NCBI RefSeq assembly: GCF_003234815.2
Contig: NZ_CP126279.1
Coordinates: forward strand, 248,001 to 312,000
Source of the DNA: Curtobacterium sp. MCBD17_035
GTDB lineage: Bacteria > Actinomycetota > Actinomycetes > Actinomycetales > Microbacteriaceae
Length of the DNA: 64,000 bases
Direction: 5' to 3'
The translations under genes and the position numbers were made by a program. The notes below the pieces were generated by a model. That model searched no databases. It was not told the DNA's origin and saw only the letters and a program-made list of their open reading frames with translations. Positions within the stretch are counted from its first letter, which is position 1. Each line of letters opens with the position of its first letter. Below, one piece after another: positions 43,319 through 59,124 of the stretch.

Positions 43319-44152
43319 GTGGCGCGGTTCCGCCGCCCGTCGCTCTACAAGTCGTCGGAGGAACTCCGGGCGATGGTCCGGCCGGGGCTCCTGACCGCCC
43401 AGGCACTGGACGCCGTCCGGTCGGCGCTGCGCGTCGGCATCACCACCGGTGAGCTCGACGCGATCGCGGAGCGTGTCATCCTCGAGGGCGGTGGCGTCCC
43501 GAACTTCCAGCTGGTCCCCGGTTACCAGCACACCCTGTGCGTCTCCGTCAATGACGAGATCGTGCACGGCATCCCCGGCGAACGGGTGATCGAAGCCGGC
43601 GACATCGTGTCCATCGACGCGGGCGCCGAGGTTGACGGCTGGAACGGCGACAGCGCCGTGACGGTCGTCGTGCCCGGGGGAGACCCGGAGCGGGCCGCGG
43701 CACGGACGATGCTCGCGGACGTCACCGAGCGGTCGATGTGGCGGGGGATCGCGGCTCTCGCGACGGCACGGAACCTCAACGAGATCGGCGCGAGCATCGA
43801 GGACGCGATCGACGAGACCGGCGCCTGGGGCATCGTGGAGGACTTCACGGGTCACGGCATCGGTCGTTCGATGCACGAGGATCCGCCGGTGTTCAACTAC
43901 CGGGTGCGGGGCGGGGGTCCCGCGGTCCGTCCGGGGCTCGCGGTGGCCATCGAGCCGATGGTGACCGCCGGCACGATCGACAGCAGCACCGATGCGGACG
44001 GTTGGACCGTCCGCACGCTCGACGGCTCGGACGCCGCGCACTGGGAGCACAGCGTGGCGGTGCACGAAAACGGCATCTGGGTGCTCACCGCAGCGGACGG
44101 CGGCGCCGCCGCCCTGGCACCGCTCGGGGTGCAGCCGCAGCCCATCGCGTGA
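43319..44152 (+). CDS. map: methionine aminopeptidase type I
   Basis: This 277-residue metalloprotease removes the initiator methionine. Metal ligands are Asp100 and Asp111 (SIDAGAEVDGWNGDSAVTV), the His of GHGIGRSMHEDPPVF, the Glu of AIEPMVTAG and the Glu of HENGIWVL. The GTG start lies 2 bp after the adk stop. It is the last gene of the secY-adk-map group; a repeat array and a reverse-strand gene follow instead of infA. Confidence 0.97.
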   Translation: MARFRRPSLYKSSEELRAMVRPGLLTAQALDAVRSALRVGITTGELDAIAERVILEGGGVPNFQLVPGYQHTLCVSVNDEIVHGIPGERVIEAGDIVSIDAGAEVDGWNGDSAVTVVVPGGDPERAAARTMLADVTERSMWRGIAALATARNLNEIGASIEDAIDETGAWGIVEDFTGHGIGRSMHEDPPVFNYRVRGGGPAVRPGLAVAIEPMVTAGTIDSSTDADGWTVRTLDGSDAAHWEHSVAVHENGIWVLTAADGGAAALAPLGVQPQPIA

Positions 44153-44160
44153 TCCAGCGC

Positions 44161-44318
44161 AGCGCGTGAACCAGCGGAGCGCGTGAACCAGCCGCAGTGC
44201 GGGAACCAGCGGCGCGGGTGAACCAGCCGCAGTGCGGGAACCAGCGGCGCGGGTGAACCAGCCGCAGTGCGGGAACCAGCGGCGCGGGTGAACCAGCCGC
44301 AGTGCGGGAACCAGTGGG
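44161..44318. repeat. 35-bp tandem repeat array
   Basis: From 44186 a unit beginning AACCAGCCGCAGTGCGGGAA is repeated with a period of exactly 35 bp at 44186, 44221, 44256 and 44291. The first three copies are identical and the fourth is truncated near 44318. Two degenerate half-units with GAACCAGCG precede it from 44161. Within each unit the word GGAACCAGCGGC echoes GTGAACCAGCCGC, so the array probably grew from a 17-18 bp half-unit. There are no spacers, so it is not a CRISPR. Confidence 0.9.
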
Positions 44319-48814: not shown

Positions 48815-49486
48815 ATGCCCAAGCCCACCAAGGGCCCCCGCCTCGGAGGCGGTCCCGCGCACGAGCGCCTGCTCCTGAGCAACCTCGCGAACGCGCTGTT
48901 CACGCACGGCCGCATCACCACGACTGAGACGAAGGCCAAGCGCCTCCGTCCCGTCGCGGAGCGTCTCGTGACGTTCGCGAAGCGTGGCGACCTGCACGCC
49001 CGCCGCAAGGTGATCAGCATCATCCGGGACAAGTCCGTCGTGCACACGCTCTTCACGGAGATCGCGCCGCAGATGGCCGACCGCCAGGGCGGTTACACCC
49101 GGATCACCAAGCTCGGCTTCCGCAAGGGCGACAACGCGCCCCTCGCGTCGATCGAGCTCGTGCTCGAGCCCGTCTCGGGCACGCCCGCTCCGGTGAACCG
49201 TCGCTCGAACCGTGCGTCCGGTTCGGCCGCAGCTGGGGCCGTGTCGACGACCGCCGCCGAGGAGGCCGCCACCGAGGAGACCACCGACGACGCCGCCGTC
49301 GCCGCGGAGACGACCGAGGCGACCGCGACCGAGGCGACCGCGACCGACGTGACCGCGACCGACGCTGCTGAGGCCGAGAGCACGGACGCCGTCGCGGAGT
49401 CCGAGCCCGTCGCCGCCGAGGAGACGACCGACGCGGCCGCCGAGGTCGAGGCGGACGCCGCCAGCAAGGCCGACGAGACCGAGTAG
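48815..49486 (+). CDS. rplQ: 50S ribosomal protein L17 with long acidic tail
   Basis: This 223-residue protein has the normal L17 core in the first 120 residues ([20 protein letters not shown], then [20 protein letters not shown]). About 100 further residues are low in complexity: Ala, Thr and Glu with repeats of TEATATEA type, ending in an acidic segment. E. coli L17 has 127 residues. The tail is presumably solvent exposed near the tunnel exit. The function is unknown. Confidence 0.96.
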
Positions 49487-49506
49487 GTCCTCGCCAGCAC
49501 ACCACA

Positions 49507-49544
49507 CGGAGGGCCTCCGCAGCGATCGCTGCGGAGGCCCTCCG
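49507..49544 (+). terminator. alpha operon terminator
   Basis: A perfect 38-base palindrome (19-bp arms starting CGGAGGGCCTCCGCAGCGA) begins 20 nt after the rplQ stop. It is the longest perfect hairpin in the window and should end the infA-rplQ transcript. It lies only 24 bp before the -10 box of the next gene. Confidence 0.93.
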
Positions 49545-49567
49545 TCGTCGGTGGGGCCCCCGGTCCC

Positions 49568-49580
49568 TAGACTCGACGCG
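49568..49580 (+). promoter_or_regulatory. -10 box giving a leaderless transcript (SARP gene)
   Basis: TAGACT (49568-49573) is followed by CGACGC and then the GTG at 49580, so the transcript should begin at or next to the start codon. No ribosome binding site is present. The -35 region is not recognisable. Confidence 0.65.
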
Positions 49581-52500
49581 TGACCGGTCAGCCACGCGTC
49601 GCCGTCCTCGGCCCGGTGCTCGTCGAGTCCCCGGCAGGGGACCTCGATCCGCTGCCCGGCGCGCTCGCCCGGACGTTCATCGCGGTCCTCGTGCTCGCCC
49701 GGGGCAACACCGCCACGACCGAGACGCTCATCGACGAGCTCTGGGGCGACACCCCGCCGAAGGGGGCGCGTGCCGCGCTGCAGACCCTGGTGTCGCGGGT
49801 ACGGCGGTCGACCGTCGAGGGCGTCGTCGCGTCGACGGGCACCGGCTACCGGTTGGCCCTGGACCCGTCGGCGCTCGACCTGGGACGGGCCGAGCAGGTC
49901 GCCGAGCGGATCTCCGACGAACTCCGGACCGATCCAGCCGGCGCGGCCCGCCGGGCATCGGCCGTGCTGGCCACGTGGCGCGGTGAGCCGGGTGCGGACC
50001 TCGAGGGACCGGTCGCCGAGGAGCTCGCGGACCGGGCGGCGACCGTGCAGCGGACCCTGCGGCGCGCCCTGGCCCAGGCGCTCTCGGCGTGCGACGACCC
50101 CGACGGCGCGGCGCGGCTGTGGGAGCAGGAGGTCGTGGCCCACCCGTTCGACGAGGCTGCGGTCGCGGGGCACATGCGGGCACTCGTCGCGGCCGGACGG
50201 GGCGCCGAGGCCCTCACGGTGTTCGCAGGACACCGCGATCGCCTGGCCGAGGAGCTCGGCGCGGACCCGTCGGCGGACCTGGTGCGGCTCAACATCGAGA
50301 TCCTCCGAGCGACGTCGACGTCGGCCCGCACGGTGCGGCGCCTCGGTCTGCGCCGATCCCCGACCACGCTCATCGGCCGGGACGCCGAGGTGGAGGCCGT
50401 CGAGCGGCTCGTCGAGGAGGAGCGGTTGGTCACGGTCCTCGGTGCCGGAGGCCTCGGCAAGACCCGGCTCGCGCAGGAGGTCGCGGGGCGCACCGCGCCC
50501 GACGTCGCCGTCGTCGTCCTCGAGCTCGCCTCGCTCACGGACGGCGCGGACATCGTCCCCGCGCTCGGCGCGGTGCTCGGGATCGCGGAACTCCGCGCCG
50601 GACGGTCGCTCCGGGACGTCGTGCTCGCGGACCTCCGGTCACGGGTCCTCCGGGCTCTCGGGGAAGCGCCGACCTTGCTCGTGCTCGACAACTGCGAACA
50701 CGTCGTCGGGGAGGTCGCCGCACTCGTCGTCGACCTGCTCGGCGAGGTCCCGAGCCTCCGCGTGCTCACGACGTCACGTGCCCCGCTCGCGGTCCCGGGC
50801 GAGGTGGTCGCACCACTCCCGCCCCTGCCGGTCGAGGCCGACGGCGCCGCCGTCCGGCTGTTCACCGAGCGTGCCCGGGCCGCCCGGCCCGGCGCCGTGT
50901 TGCCGGTCGATGCGGTCCGTCGGATCTGCGCCCGGCTCGACGGCTCGCCGCTCGCGATCGAGCTGGCGGCGGCACGCGTCCGCGGCATGAGTGTCGACGA
51001 GATCGAGCGACGGCTCGACGACCGATTCGCCCTGCTCCGCGGAGGCGATCGGACCGCGCCCGAACGGCATCGGACGCTGCTCGCCGTGATCGAGTGGAGC
51101 TGGCGGCTCCTCGACGACGGCGCCCAGGACCTGTTGACCCGCTTGGCGCTGTTCCCGGACGGCGTCGCGGTGGAGGCGGTCGAGGCCGTCGTGCGCCCGG
51201 ACCGGGTCGACACGGCGCTCGACGACCTCGCGGAGCTCGTCGAGCAGTCGCTCGTCCAGTTGACGGAGCGCGAGGGCGAGCCCGCACGCTACCGGTTGCT
51301 CGAGACGGTCCGGGAGTTCGGTGCCGCGCGGCTCACCGAGCGGGGTACGACCGAGGACGTGCGCACGGTGATGATCCGGTGGGGCGCGGCCCACGCCCTC
51401 GATCGGAACGTGCTCCTCGCCGGTCCCGGGCAGCGTCGCGTGTTCCGCGAGGTCGAACGCGAGGTCGACAACCTCGTCGCGCTCCTGCGGTGGTCGCTCG
51501 GCCGGGGTGACCGCAGGGCGATCGCGCCCATCGCCGCAGCGCTCGGGACGTACTGGTCACTCCGGGGCGTGCACGGGGAGGTCGTGGCGATCGCGCCCGA
51601 CGTCGTCGCGGCGCTGGCGGGCGGCGCGCCCGACCCCGACCTGCTCCTGCCCACCGTCGTGGCCCTCACCGTCATGGGGGCGTCGTCGGCGTTCACCGAC
51701 CTCCGGACGGCCGCCGTCGCCGTGTCCGCCTTGCGCCGACTGCGTCGGCAGCACGGTCCGACCGGAGTCCGCCTGGCGGATGCGCAGGCGGAGCTCTTCA
51801 CCGCGATCGGACGCACCGACCTCGCGATGGCGACCCTCGCCCGCCTCCGCGACGACGACGACCCCGAGGTCGCGTGCTTCGCCCTGACGATCAGTGCGCC
51901 CCTGGCCGAGAACGCGGGCGACGTGGCGGACGCGCTCCGCTACGCCCGCCGGGCGGAGGCGCTCGCGAGCGCCCACGGCGACCTCTGGACGGCGGGAACG
52001 GCCGACGTGTCCCGCGTGCAGCTCCTCACTCAGACCGGGCACCCCGAGGAGGCACTGGTCGCCGCGGATCGCGCACGGGAGCGACTGCAGTGGTTCGGCG
52101 CGGATGACGACCTCGCCGAGATCAGCTGGTCGATGGGCCTGGCTGCCGCCGCTGCCGGTCAGCCGGACCGGGCGCGCGCCGTCGCGGTCGACCTCGACCT
52201 GCCCCGACCGGGCGCCCGACTCGACGACGACGGACTCCAGTTCCGGACGCTCGCGTTCGCCGTCCGGGCGGAGGCCGCCCGCGCCGAGGGCGACGTGCAG
52301 ACCGCGCTGGAGGAGTACGACCGCGGCTTCGCGTACGTCCGTGACCACATGAAGCAGGCACCGCAGTGGACGCTCATGGTCGCCGCGGCGCGCATCGCTA
52401 TCGATCTGGAGGCCCGCGAGCGGGACGGGGGTGCACCGCGCCTCCCGGACGACGGCAGGGCGACGGAGGCGGCCCGGGTGGCCAAGGTCGGCGCGCTCGT

Positions 52501-52840
52501 CGCGATCCGCATCGGCGCGTGGTGGCTCGACCTGCCGGTGATCGGCGACGCGCTCATCGCGGTTGCCCTGTGGGGGGCCACCACGCAGCGCGTCGAACCG
52601 GGTCTCGTCGCGGCGATCTGGGGGACCGCCGTGCGCGTGGGAGCGCGGCAGGACCTCGCCGTGCTCCGGTACGAGCGCGTCCGGGGCGTGCTCGCGCGGT
52701 GGACGGGACGGGCCGCCCTCGCGGACGCCGAGACGGCCTCGGCCGGTCTGGACCGGGCCGAGGCCGTCGCGCGGGCCCGAGCGCTGCTCGAGCAGGTCCG
52801 CGTCCCGCGGCGGGCGGAGGCTCAGGCCTTCCGCATGTAG
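49580..52840 (+). CDS. AfsR/SARP-family transcriptional regulator with NB-ARC ATPase
   Basis: This 1086-residue multidomain activator has, first, an OmpR-like winged helix (residues 1-95, VAVLGPVLVESPAGDLDPLP to GTGYRLAL). Next is a bacterial activator domain (about 100-250, with HPFDEAAVAGHMRALVAAGR). An STAND/NB-ARC ATPase follows, with Walker A GAGGLGKTRL near 290 and Walker B LLVLDNCEHVV near 368. The last 450 residues are helical and TPR-like. AfsR-type proteins activate secondary-metabolism or export genes by binding direct repeats. The gene converges on an ABC transporter and overlaps its end by 19 bp. The likely operator lies at 54681-54709. Its input signal is unknown. Confidence 0.92.
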   Translation: MTGQPRVAVLGPVLVESPAGDLDPLPGALARTFIAVLVLARGNTATTETLIDELWGDTPPKGARAALQTLVSRVRRSTVEGVVASTGTGYRLALDPSALDLGRAEQVAERISDELRTDPAGAARRASAVLATWRGEPGADLEGPVAEELADRAATVQRTLRRALAQALSACDDPDGAARLWEQEVVAHPFDEAAVAGHMRALVAAGRGAEALTVFAGHRDRLAEELGADPSADLVRLNIEILRATSTSARTVRRLGLRRSPTTLIGRDAEVEAVERLVEEERLVTVLGAGGLGKTRLAQEVAGRTAPDVAVVVLELASLTDGADIVPALGAVLGIAELRAGRSLRDVVLADLRSRVLRALGEAPTLLVLDNCEHVVGEVAALVVDLLGEVPSLRVLTTSRAPLAVPGEVVAPLPPLPVEADGAAVRLFTERARAARPGAVLPVDAVRRICARLDGSPLAIELAAARVRGMSVDEIERRLDDRFALLRGGDRTAPERHRTLLAVIEWSWRLLDDGAQDLLTRLALFPDGVAVEAVEAVVRPDRVDTALDDLAELVEQSLVQLTEREGEPARYRLLETVREFGAARLTERGTTEDVRTVMIRWGAAHALDRNVLLAGPGQRRVFREVEREVDNLVALLRWSLGRGDRRAIAPIAAALGTYWSLRGVHGEVVAIAPDVVAALAGGAPDPDLLLPTVVALTVMGASSAFTDLRTAAVAVSALRRLRRQHGPTGVRLADAQAELFTAIGRTDLAMATLARLRDDDDPEVACFALTISAPLAENAGDVADALRYARRAEALASAHGDLWTAGTADVSRVQLLTQTGHPEEALVAADRARERLQWFGADDDLAEISWSMGLAAAAAGQPDRARAVAVDLDLPRPGARLDDDGLQFRTLAFAVRAEAARAEGDVQTALEEYDRGFAYVRDHMKQAPQWTLMVAAARIAIDLEARERDGGAPRLPDDGRATEAARVAKVGALVAIRIGAWWLDLPVIGDALIAVALWGATTQRVEPGLVAAIWGTAVRVGARQDLAVLRYERVRGVLARWTGRAALADAETASAGLDRAEAVARARALLEQVRVPRRAEAQAFRM

Positions 52841-53643
52841 GCGCGGACGGTCAAGGGGGCGAAGACCGCGACGACGACGGCGGCACCGACGAGCGAGAGC
52901 ACGAGGTCGCTGCCCACCTGCCCGTGGTTGACGAGGTCGCGCACGGCGGTGATGAGGTGCGAGATCGGGTTCACCTCGCTGAACCACCGGAGCCAGGACG
53001 GCAGCGTGTCGGCGGGGACGAACGCGTTGGACAGGAACGTCAGCGGGAACAGGACCATGTTCGAGATGCCCGAGACGCTCGACGCGGTGCGCGCGACGAC
53101 GCCGAAGAACGCGAACACCCAGCTGATCGCCCAGGCGACCACGACGACGAGGAGTCCCGCGGCGACGACCGACCCCAAACCGCCCTCGGGGCGCAGGCCC
53201 ATGCAGAACCCGACGACGAACGTGATGGTCGTCGCGATCGCGTAGCGGACCGTGTCGGCGAGCAGCGCTCCGGCGAGCGGGGCGATGCGGGCGATGGGCA
53301 GCGACTTGAACCGGTCGAACACGCCCTTGTCCATGTCCTCGCGGAGCTGGACGCCCGTGACGATCGACGAGGTGATGTTCGTCTGGACGAGGATGCCCGG
53401 GATGATGATCGGGAGGTAGGCCGTCACGCCGCCGGCGATGGCCCCGCCGAAGATGTACGTGAACATCACGGTGAAGATGATCGGCATGAGCGTGACGTCG
53501 AAGAGCTGCTCCGGCGTCCGACGCACCTTGATGAGCCCGCGGTACGCCATGGTGAGCGACTGTCGGACCGTGGCCCCGAGTCCGGAACCGCCGACGCCGG
53601 GGCGCGGGGTGACGGTGCGGCGTGTGCTGGTGATGGCGGTCAT
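52822..53643 (-). CDS. ABC transporter permease (DrrB-like, ABC-2 family)
   Basis: This 273-residue membrane protein has about six helices and the ABC-2 core: IIFTVMFTYIFGGAIAGG, then YLPIIIPGILVQTNITSSIV, and NMVLFPLTFLSNAFVPADTL near the end. The family exports hydrophobic drugs, lipids or polyketides, DrrB being the daunorubicin example. The substrate is not evident. The ATG overlaps the upstream ATPase stop by four bases, so the two are coupled. Its last 19 bp overlap the end of the convergent SARP gene. Confidence 0.9.
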   Translation of the reverse strand: MTAITSTRRTVTPRPGVGGSGLGATVRQSLTMAYRGLIKVRRTPEQLFDVTLMPIIFTVMFTYIFGGAIAGGVTAYLPIIIPGILVQTNITSSIVTGVQLREDMDKGVFDRFKSLPIARIAPLAGALLADTVRYAIATTITFVVGFCMGLRPEGGLGSVVAAGLLVVVVAWAISWVFAFFGVVARTASSVSGISNMVLFPLTFLSNAFVPADTLPSWLRWFSEVNPISHLITAVRDLVNHGQVGSDLVLSLVGAAVVVAVFAPLTVRAYMRKA

Positions 53644-54641
53644 GCGAGGGTCCCTTCGAGGACGCGGTCGGTGTCGTCGGTCGGGTCGTCCTGCGCGACG
53701 CTCCGCCCGGTGATGGTGAGGAAGACCTCGTCGAGCGTCGGCTTCTGCACGCTCATCTCGGCGAGGGAGACGCCCGAGTCGCGGAGCGCGACGAGCAGGT
53801 CCGCGACGCGGTCCGGGTCGGCCATCGGTGCGGTGATGCGGGCGCCCTCGGGTGAGACGGCGGCGCCGGCCCCGAGGATCCGCTCGACGATCGCCTGCGC
53901 CGCACCGAGCCGGGCGGCGTCCGCGAGCCGGAGCTGCAGGGAGGCGGTGCCCACCGATGCCTTGAGGTCGTCCGCCGTGCCCTCGGCGACGACGCGTCCA
54001 CGGTCGATGACGGCGATGCGGTCGGCGAGCTGGTCGGCCTCGTCGAGGTACTGCGTGGTGAGGAGCACGGTCGATCCGGTCGCGACGAGCTCGCGGATCG
54101 TGTCCCACATCTGCGCACGCGTCCGGGGGTCCAGCCCGGTGGTCGGCTCGTCGAGGAAGATGAGTGGCGGTTGCGCGATGAGGCTCGCGGCGAGGTCGAG
54201 CCGCCGTCGCATCCCACCGGAGAACGCCTTGAGCGGGCGCTTCGCGGCCTCGGTCAGTCCGAAGCGCTCGAGGAGGTCCGAGGCCTTCGCCCGCGACTCG
54301 GCCCGACCGAGGCCGAGCAGTCGGGAGAAGATGACGAGGTTCTCGGTCGCGCTGAGCGTCTCGTCGACGGACGCGTACTGCCCGGTCACGCCGATGAGCC
54401 GTCGGACCGCCTGGGCCTCGTGCCGCACGTCGTGTCCGAAGATGCGTGCCTCGCCCGCGTCGGGCTTGAGCAGCGTGGCGAGCATGCTGATGGTGGTGGT
54501 CTTGCCCGCGCCGTTCGGCCCGAGCACGCCGTACACGGTGCCCGCCTCGACCCGCAGGTCGACGCCATCCACCGCACGGTTCTGCCCGAACGTCTTGACG
54601 AGGCCGGTCGCCTCGACGGCGAGCGTCGCCTGGTCGTTCAT
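53640..54641 (-). CDS. ABC transporter ATPase (DrrA-like)
   Basis: This 333-residue ATPase has Walker A GPNGAGKTTT, the Q loop VTGQYASVDE, the signature FSGGMRRRLDLA, Walker B LIFLDEPTTGLD and an H loop in TTQYLDEADQLAD. A C-terminal regulatory domain (about 230-333) is typical of DrrA-type exporters. The ATG is preceded by AAAGGA, 6 nt upstream. It is divergent from truA across an 87-bp gap holding 11-bp periodic repeats. The pair probably exports a hydrophobic compound; this is inference from family only. Confidence 0.92.
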   Translation of the reverse strand: MNDQATLAVEATGLVKTFGQNRAVDGVDLRVEAGTVYGVLGPNGAGKTTTISMLATLLKPDAGEARIFGHDVRHEAQAVRRLIGVTGQYASVDETLSATENLVIFSRLLGLGRAESRAKASDLLERFGLTEAAKRPLKAFSGGMRRRLDLAASLIAQPPLIFLDEPTTGLDPRTRAQMWDTIRELVATGSTVLLTTQYLDEADQLADRIAVIDRGRVVAEGTADDLKASVGTASLQLRLADAARLGAAQAIVERILGAGAAVSPEGARITAPMADPDRVADLLVALRDSGVSLAEMSVQKPTLDEVFLTITGRSVAQDDPTDDTDRVLEGTLA

Positions 54642-54680
54642 GGGGTGTCCTTTCGTTCGACGGTGCCCATGCTCCGGGCG

Positions 54681-54722
54681 GGCGCTGACGTGGCACTGAC
54701 GTGGTGCTGACGCCGGTACCCT
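54681..54722. promoter_or_regulatory. putative SARP operator with truA leaderless promoter
   Basis: Three heptamers, GGCGCTG (54681-54687), GGCACTG (54692-54698) and GGTGCTG (54703-54709), are spaced by 4 bp (ACGT twice), a strict 11-bp period. SARP activators are known to bind direct heptamers with 4-bp spacers about 8 bp ahead of a -10 box. The truA -10 TACCCT (54717-54722) lies 7 bp after the third heptamer and 6 nt before the GTG, so truA would be leaderless. On the other strand GAGCAT lies 6 bp past the outermost heptamer and could serve the ABC genes. The binding protein is inferred. Confidence 0.5.
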
Positions 54723-54728
54723 CGTTCC

Positions 54729-55724
54729 GTGACAGACGAGGCCGGCACCGTGCGTCTCCGGCTCGACATCGCCTACGACGGCAGCGGTTTCGCCGGATGG
54801 GCTCGGCAGCCGACCCTCCGGACGGTGCAGGGCGAACTCGAGTCCGCGCTCGAGACCGTGTTCCGGCGCTCCGGTCCGGCGCCCCGCCTCACGGTGGCGG
54901 GCCGGACGGACGCGGGCGTGCACGCGACGGGGCAGGTCGCCCACTGTGACCTCACCCCCGAACAGTGGGAGAGCCTCGCTCGACCGCACCGCGGTGCGGC
55001 CGGCCGACCCCAGCGGCTGCCGACGGACGCCCTCCTGCACCGCCTGAACGGCATCGCGGGGCTCGACAGTGACGTCGTGGTGACGGCCGTCGCGGTCGCG
55101 CCGCCGGGGTTCGACGCCCGGTTCTCCCCGGTCTGGCGACGGTACGCGTACCGCGTCGCGGACCTCGGGGCACCGCGGGACCCGCTCCGCCGCGGCCACA
55201 CGCTGTGGTACCCCACGCGCCTCGACGAGGGCGCGATGGAGACGGGCGCCCTGACGCTGCTGGGCCTGCACGACTTCGCCACGTTCTGCAAGCCGCGGGA
55301 AGGCGCCACCACCATCCGAACGCTCCAGGAGTTCCGATGGCACCGTGAGCCGGACGGCGTGCTCGTGGCGTCCCTCCAGGCCGACGCGTTCTGCCACAGC
55401 ATGGTGCGGGCGATGGTGGGTGCGTCGCTCGCGGTCGGCGAGGGGCGGCTCGCGCCGCACCGGCTGGCGGAGCTGCGCGAGGAGGCGGTGCGCACGAGCG
55501 CGTTCACGGTCGCCCCGGCGAAGGGGCTCGTCCTCACCGAGGTCGGCTACCCGCCCGACGACGAGCTCGCGGCCCGCGCGGAGCAGACCCGGGCCCGCCG
55601 CGACCAGGACGGGCACCGGTCGGAGGCCGACCAGGCTCGACAGGTGGGCATCAGCACCGCCGCGCCCACCGCCGCCCCGGAAGGCCCCGCAGGGTCGGGT
55701 GCGGTCGCGGAGCGACGCGCGTGA
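54729..55724 (+). CDS. truA: tRNA pseudouridine synthase A
   Basis: This 331-residue enzyme makes pseudouridine at positions 38-40 of tRNA. The catalytic Asp61 is in AGRTDAGVHATGQVAH. RLDIAYDGSGFAGWARQPTL opens the fold and FCHSMVRAMVGASLAVGEG lies in the C-terminal half. The protein is about 60 residues longer than E. coli TruA, through an insertion near residue 85-100 and a Pro/Ala tail. In many actinobacteria truA follows rplQ; here the regulator and exporter genes lie between. It overlaps the next start (GTGA). Confidence 0.95.
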   Translation: MTDEAGTVRLRLDIAYDGSGFAGWARQPTLRTVQGELESALETVFRRSGPAPRLTVAGRTDAGVHATGQVAHCDLTPEQWESLARPHRGAAGRPQRLPTDALLHRLNGIAGLDSDVVVTAVAVAPPGFDARFSPVWRRYAYRVADLGAPRDPLRRGHTLWYPTRLDEGAMETGALTLLGLHDFATFCKPREGATTIRTLQEFRWHREPDGVLVASLQADAFCHSMVRAMVGASLAVGEGRLAPHRLAELREEAVRTSAFTVAPAKGLVLTEVGYPPDDELAARAEQTRARRDQDGHRSEADQARQVGISTAAPTAAPEGPAGSGAVAERRA

Positions 55725-59021: not shown

Positions 59022-59118
59022 GGGAGGCGCGGTGCGGATCGGACCCGCACCGCGCCTCCCGGTCGTGTCCGGGTGGTGCGGATCGGACCCGCACCGCGCC
59101 TCCCGGTCGTGTCCGGGT
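59022..59118. terminator. duplicated hairpin terminator between glmM and coaA
   Basis: GGGAGGCGCGGTGCGG (59022-59037) pairs perfectly with its complement at 59045-59060. A 44-bp block (59031-59074) is then repeated in tandem at 59075-59118, bringing a second, weaker stem and a second copy of the right arm at 59089-59104. The block lies between convergent genes and could stop transcription from both sides. The second copy looks like a recent slippage duplication. Confidence 0.8.
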
Positions 59119-59124
59119 GGTGCG

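Follow-up and report, generated by a model that had tools for sequence, protein, structure and literature searches.

The repeats at 54683-54711 of the window (the whole 64-kb stretch of Curtobacterium DNA analysed here) are very probably a SARP-type operator for a DrrA/DrrB-type exporter, recognised by the neighbouring large SARP (49580-52840). We infer binding, activation and signal from sequence comparison, and hold with high confidence that this regulator would switch the exporter on through the site while truA is a bystander. The first-pass annotation had proposed that the AfsR-type protein controls the adjacent exporter through a SARP operator, a proposal now strongly supported by conservation of the repeat phase, the 8-bp rule, the joint loss of regulator and exporter, and the specificity of the site. 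The features concerned are the following.

49580-52840, plus strand: large SARP (AfsR-type), inferred regulator of the site (Pfam BTAD, 6.7e-21; AfsR chain 8hvr, 3e-21; AF2/Foldseek)
52822-53643, minus strand: ABC-2 exporter permease, DrrB-like, operon gene 2 (Pfam ABC2_membrane, 6.1e-30; NCBIfam DrrB models below cut-off)
53640-54641, minus strand: DrrA-type ABC exporter ATPase, operon gene 1 (Pfam ABC_tran, 8.9e-32, and DrrA1-3_C; TIGR01188 drrA above cut-off)
54648-54653, minus strand: ribosome-binding site AAAGGA of the exporter ATPase, 6 nt from ATG (sequence)
54669-54674, minus strand: GAGCAT, predicted -10 of the exporter operon; its 8-bp spacing to heptamer 3 is kept in relatives
54683-54689, minus strand: heptamer 3 (proximal), GTCAGCG (sequence and relatives)
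54694-54700, minus strand: heptamer 2, GTCAGTG (sequence and relatives)
54705-54711, minus strand: heptamer 1 (distal), GTCAGCA (sequence; identical place and phase in relatives)
54717-54722, plus strand: TACCCT, predicted -10 of a leaderless truA promoter, whose upstream side the operator overlaps; not a conserved part of the system
54729-55724, plus strand: truA, tRNA pseudouridine synthase (Pfam PseudoU_synth_1), a neighbour outside the regulon

Regulator and exporter genes

The domain layout of the regulator comprises a DNA-binding domain, BTAD, NB-ARC/STAND and helical repeats. Its BTAD match scores 75.6 bits against a cut-off of 22.1, the Trans_reg_C match lies just below the cut-off (23.5 vs 26.2) and that to AAA_22 slightly below, while Pfam returns no TPR family match. 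AfsR is the nearest solved structure by sequence, and the AF2 model (pLDDT 88) predicts a winged helix, a helical BTAD, a STAND-type ATPase and a helical-repeat tail, with residues 591-1085 all-helical. Searched with this model, Foldseek retrieves AfsR (8k60, TMt 0.84-0.86, and 8hvr), EmbR, the STAND-TPR structure 6mfv and Apaf-1. The combination of an N-terminal winged helix and BTAD with a STAND ATPase and helical-repeat C-terminus is that of a large SARP. Its assignment as an equivalog of the global regulator AfsR was rejected, NF053617 giving 104.9 bits against a cut-off of 1430, which makes it a relative and not AfsR proper. A counterpart in Curtobacterium sp. MCBD17_013 is 99% identical.

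The two exporter genes, which overlap by 4 bp, unite a DrrA ATPase (TIGR01188, 359.9 bits, cut-off 312.45) and an ABC-2 permease in a single operon, as in DrrAB-type exporters. The 3' ends of the permease and SARP genes share 19 bp (52822-52840). The distance from rplQ to the SARP gene or truA, 93 bp in the window (49486-49580), is occupied in some relatives (L047, L049, L051, L053) by a region of about 1.3 kb with coding sequence at least in its last part (...GPSAFGRPRG stop).

The operator repeats

On the plus strand GGCGCTG (from 54681), GGCACTG (from 54692) and GGTGCTG (from 54703) are separated in both cases by ACGT; these three heptamers, TACCCT 7 bp after the third, and GAGCAT all lie where the first-pass annotation had placed them. 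The triple heptamer pattern occurs once in the 64-kb window, against an average of 0.01 in shuffles. TRF likewise finds an 11-bp array (54681-54712). Other tandem repeats of the window lie at 44149-44314 (35-bp, 4.8 copies, 95% matches) and 59031-59124 (perfect 44-bp, 2.1 copies).

The register and strand assigned to the heptamers at first were off. The bases kept among relatives, at 54683-54689, 54694-54700 and 54705-54711, are CRCTGAC on the plus strand, or GTCAGYG on the minus strand; because GTVAG on the minus strand is invariant in relatives, the register GGYRCTG was replaced by GTVAGYG, the heptamer consensus over relatives on the minus (exporter) strand. GAGCAT (minus strand, 54674-54669), which in the former register stands 6 bp beyond the first GGYRCTG heptamer, closes the series read along the exporter strand: heptamer, N4, heptamer, N4, heptamer, 8 bp, -10. 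In published SARP sites the direct repeats have a spacing of 11 or 22 bp, with 8 bp between the 3' one and the -10 (PMC10936776), and the present site likewise has direct heptamers at 11-bp spacing and GTCAGCG followed after 8 bp by GAGCAT, overlapping the -35.

The operator overlaps the -35 region of both the exporter and the truA promoter. Such an overlap would also suit the same protein at the same site acting as a repressor of the exporter, or acting both ways by also occluding truA; this is unlikely, however, since the exporter promoter, which has no -35 and a poor -10 at a constant 8-bp spacing, is built like one that a SARP activates (PMC10936776). Autoregulation of the SARP gene was rejected, its upstream region (49401-49590) containing no heptamers.

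Conservation within Curtobacterium

The surroundings of truA were taken from 34 relatives. Regulator and ATPase are found in 30 of them, with the permease seen in 29 of these 30; in one relative the contig ends inside the ATPase and the regulator lies on a different contig. All 30 relatives with the genes have repeats between the ATPase and truA, one of them in degenerate copies, and the truA surroundings of the four relatives without regulator and ATPase have none. Among 60 Curtobacterium genomes the two genes are jointly present in the same 50 and jointly absent from the same 10, counts that are phylogenetically linked: on a truA tree of 35 rows the presence of the cassette changes twice. 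The exporter carries the site in every one of the 50 genomes with the genes and the triple pattern in 49; one genome (G032) has degenerate heptamer copies, yet keeps both the phase and the 8-bp gap. The 8-bp spacer, together with A and T at positions 2 and 6 of the -10 hexamer, recurs at 31 of 31 genus sites. Relatives with both regulator and transporter but without the 11-bp phase had been named beforehand as an argument against the operator; the phase is kept. Short tandem repeats are common in the GC-rich window, and one might take the array for a product of chance or slippage with no function; this is scarcely credible, since in 50 genomes and in other genera the array stands at the same place, its heptamers kept and its 4-bp spacers diverged.

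Specificity of the site

A search for the strict triple in 300 genomes of the family gave 33 matches at 30 sites, 19 of them directly upstream of the exporter on the same strand, and 2 matches for the reversed pattern. A search for two heptamers followed after 8 bp by a -10 gave 60 matches in the 50 Curtobacterium genomes with the regulator and none in the ten without it, and the reversed control of this pattern gave none in the Curtobacterium genomes. Most genomes of the genus contain one or two matching sites, that of the window one. Five exporter orthologues from three genera (~71-74%) with no regulator nearby lack such repeats, as do eleven exporter paralogues (54-58%). The orthologues without a SARP (L179-L183) mostly stand close behind a coding region that ends in a conserved ...ELGTVPRAL... 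stretch and perhaps encodes a different regulator.

OmpR-family regulators use similar 11-bp phased direct repeats, and in Streptomyces the sequences bound by AfsR and PhoP reportedly overlap. Binding of the repeats by a PhoP- or MtrA-like response regulator or another global factor is nevertheless quite unlikely given the low number of sites per genome, their absence from the ten genomes without the SARP and the lack of repeats at exporter orthologues without it.

The position of truA

The first-pass annotation had suggested that the same site may also control truA. In the window truA starts with TACCCT, 6 nt and GTG and is apparently leaderless, as is the SARP gene, a TANNNT hexamer standing about 6 nt before GTG in both (54717-54731; 49567-49582). 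Activation by the site of truA, or of exporter and truA together, would tie tRNA modification to the regulator, and in 20 of 31 Curtobacterium genomes, the window included, the truA -10 does lie exactly 5 bp past the last CTGAC. In the other 11, however, its distance to the repeats is 53-114 bp, with no change on the exporter side; heptamer polarity and the 8-bp rule suit the exporter only, and truA is no neighbour outside the genus, which together make this alternative very unlikely. truA is a bystander and not in the regulon, and the suggested connection of tRNA modification to secondary metabolism falls away. The bound SARP may possibly occlude truA in those genomes whose truA promoter overlaps the operator.

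Further sites in Curtobacterium

The 60 two-heptamer matches divide into 49 at the exporter, 5 at flavin monooxygenase genes, 5 at Anthrone_oxy genes and 1 unexplained (L279, G063:C1:2979871-2979902), the single match in the genus with no target gene found behind it. The monooxygenases belong to FAD_binding_3, and their nearest NCBIfam models, tetracycline destructase among them, score below cut-off; the Anthrone_oxy targets are membrane proteins of that family, one of them a partial sequence with a score of 27.2, just short of the cut-off (27.3). The site stands upstream of every one of the seven monooxygenase homologues at 64-100%, and one of the seven site-bearing genes is in a genome listed as the window's species (G075). 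Five distant homologues (42-43%) have no site, and a close copy of the flavin monooxygenase is missing from the window's own genome. The distant homologues L288, L289 and L291 are preceded by an inverted repeat (TTGCCAAT...TTGGTAAT) that another regulator perhaps recognises. Because the site also precedes flavin monooxygenases and anthrone-oxygenase-like proteins in some Curtobacterium, the regulon looks like one of export plus detoxification.

Other genera and beyond the family

Forty relatives of the regulator (~36-45% identity) from other Microbacteriaceae genera were examined with 5 kb flanks. The exporter permease, the ATPase or both (~70-81% identity) are near the regulator in 39, mostly convergent with it, and at the fortieth locus (G290) the ATPase lies just past this stretch. 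truA is not among the neighbours found at these 40 loci. GTVAGYG-like heptamers are again in phase in these genera, and in named genomes outside the family, where a DrrA-like ATPase accompanies a SARP relative at 34 loci, the phase is as strong and the heptamer altered, for example to GTCGGYG in Streptomyces. The mean 11-bp phase score upstream of the exporter ATPase (of 21) is 17.4 in the genus, 16.7 in the family and 16.7 outside it, against a baseline of about 12, given by shuffles and by most other spacings, and 11.9 for exporters without the regulator. A -10 with the same A and T as in the genus stands at 8 bp in 27 of 29 family sites with a clear triple, and a -10 at exactly 8 bp in 17 of 27 outside the family, with none at 7 or 9 bp in genus, family or outside-family sites; the 8-bp figures lean on the choice of register for the family and outside sites, since the script that picked it favours G-first, AG-centred heptamers, which does not apply to the exact-pattern searches.

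Recognition helix and comparison with known systems

In S. coelicolor AfsR the bases are contacted by T88 and R92, and S91 touches the backbone (PMC10936776). These residues and R94 are all kept in the window's SARP, which shares about 35% identity with AfsR over the SARP domain. A change of helix Ser91 to Gly accompanies a change of heptamer A4 to G (72 + 13 cases agree, 1 does not), and in Streptomycetaceae Ala88/Gly91 are paired with G at heptamer position 4. As a statistical proof this covariation was dropped, and it is kept as supportive; it represents a single evolutionary event and is therefore not independent support.

The closest known system is AfsR with the afs box of afsS in Streptomyces coelicolor (8hvr, 8k60; PMC10936776), likewise a large SARP with an NB-ARC and helical-repeat sensor acting on 11-bp direct repeats that overlap the -35, the 3' repeat being 8 bp from the -10 and the repeat reading TTCAGC, against GTCAGC in the window. 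It differs in having two repeats instead of three, and a regulator of secondary metabolism as target instead of an exporter operon. Three heptamers are also found at the sites of ActII-ORF4, PimR and related SARPs, with 4-bp spacers for PimR (PMC10972967, PMC5930380), the known targets of which are in biosynthetic gene clusters, unlike the exporter of the window.

A SARP at drrAB-type exporter genes has a reported precedent in DnrI, the small SARP of an antibiotic producer. In 2017 Prija et al. reportedly found that DnrI of Streptomyces peucetius binds drrAB/drrC. Unlike DnrI, the large SARP of the window is encoded convergently with the exporter in a ribosomal-protein neighbourhood, and the pair recurs across genera. 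The openly licensed papers searched held nothing relevant on a SARP-exporter module, an absence that is weak evidence. The novelty is in the target and its recurrence, not in the mechanism.

Proposed mechanism and biological meaning

By analogy with S. coelicolor AfsR, adjacent SARP protomers on the repeats would stand in for a good -35 element, and the bound protein would hold sigma region 4 and recruit RNA polymerase, turning the exporter on. The STAND ATPase and helical-repeat domains presumably gate activation in response to a signal, which is probably a toxic aromatic compound, a guess made from the target genes only, because in some relatives flavin monooxygenase and anthrone-oxygenase-like genes have the operator upstream too.

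The best-known role of SARPs is to switch on antibiotic biosynthesis, and few signals of large SARPs with a STAND domain are known. Large SARP and DrrAB-type exporter may form a widespread actinobacterial sensor module apart from antibiotic biosynthesis, in which the STAND ATPase would detect toxic aromatic natural products and induce export and enzymatic detoxification via phased heptamers that vary with the recognition helix, a generalisation that we offer tentatively, at slightly less than even chances. The recurrence of regulator, site and exporter in many actinobacteria suggests a drug-response switch for efflux and, in some species, for detoxifying enzymes. A recurring SARP-exporter pair with a readable operator and few detoxification targets makes a simple reporter system for finding the signal, and the operator rule could predict targets of uncharacterised large SARPs.
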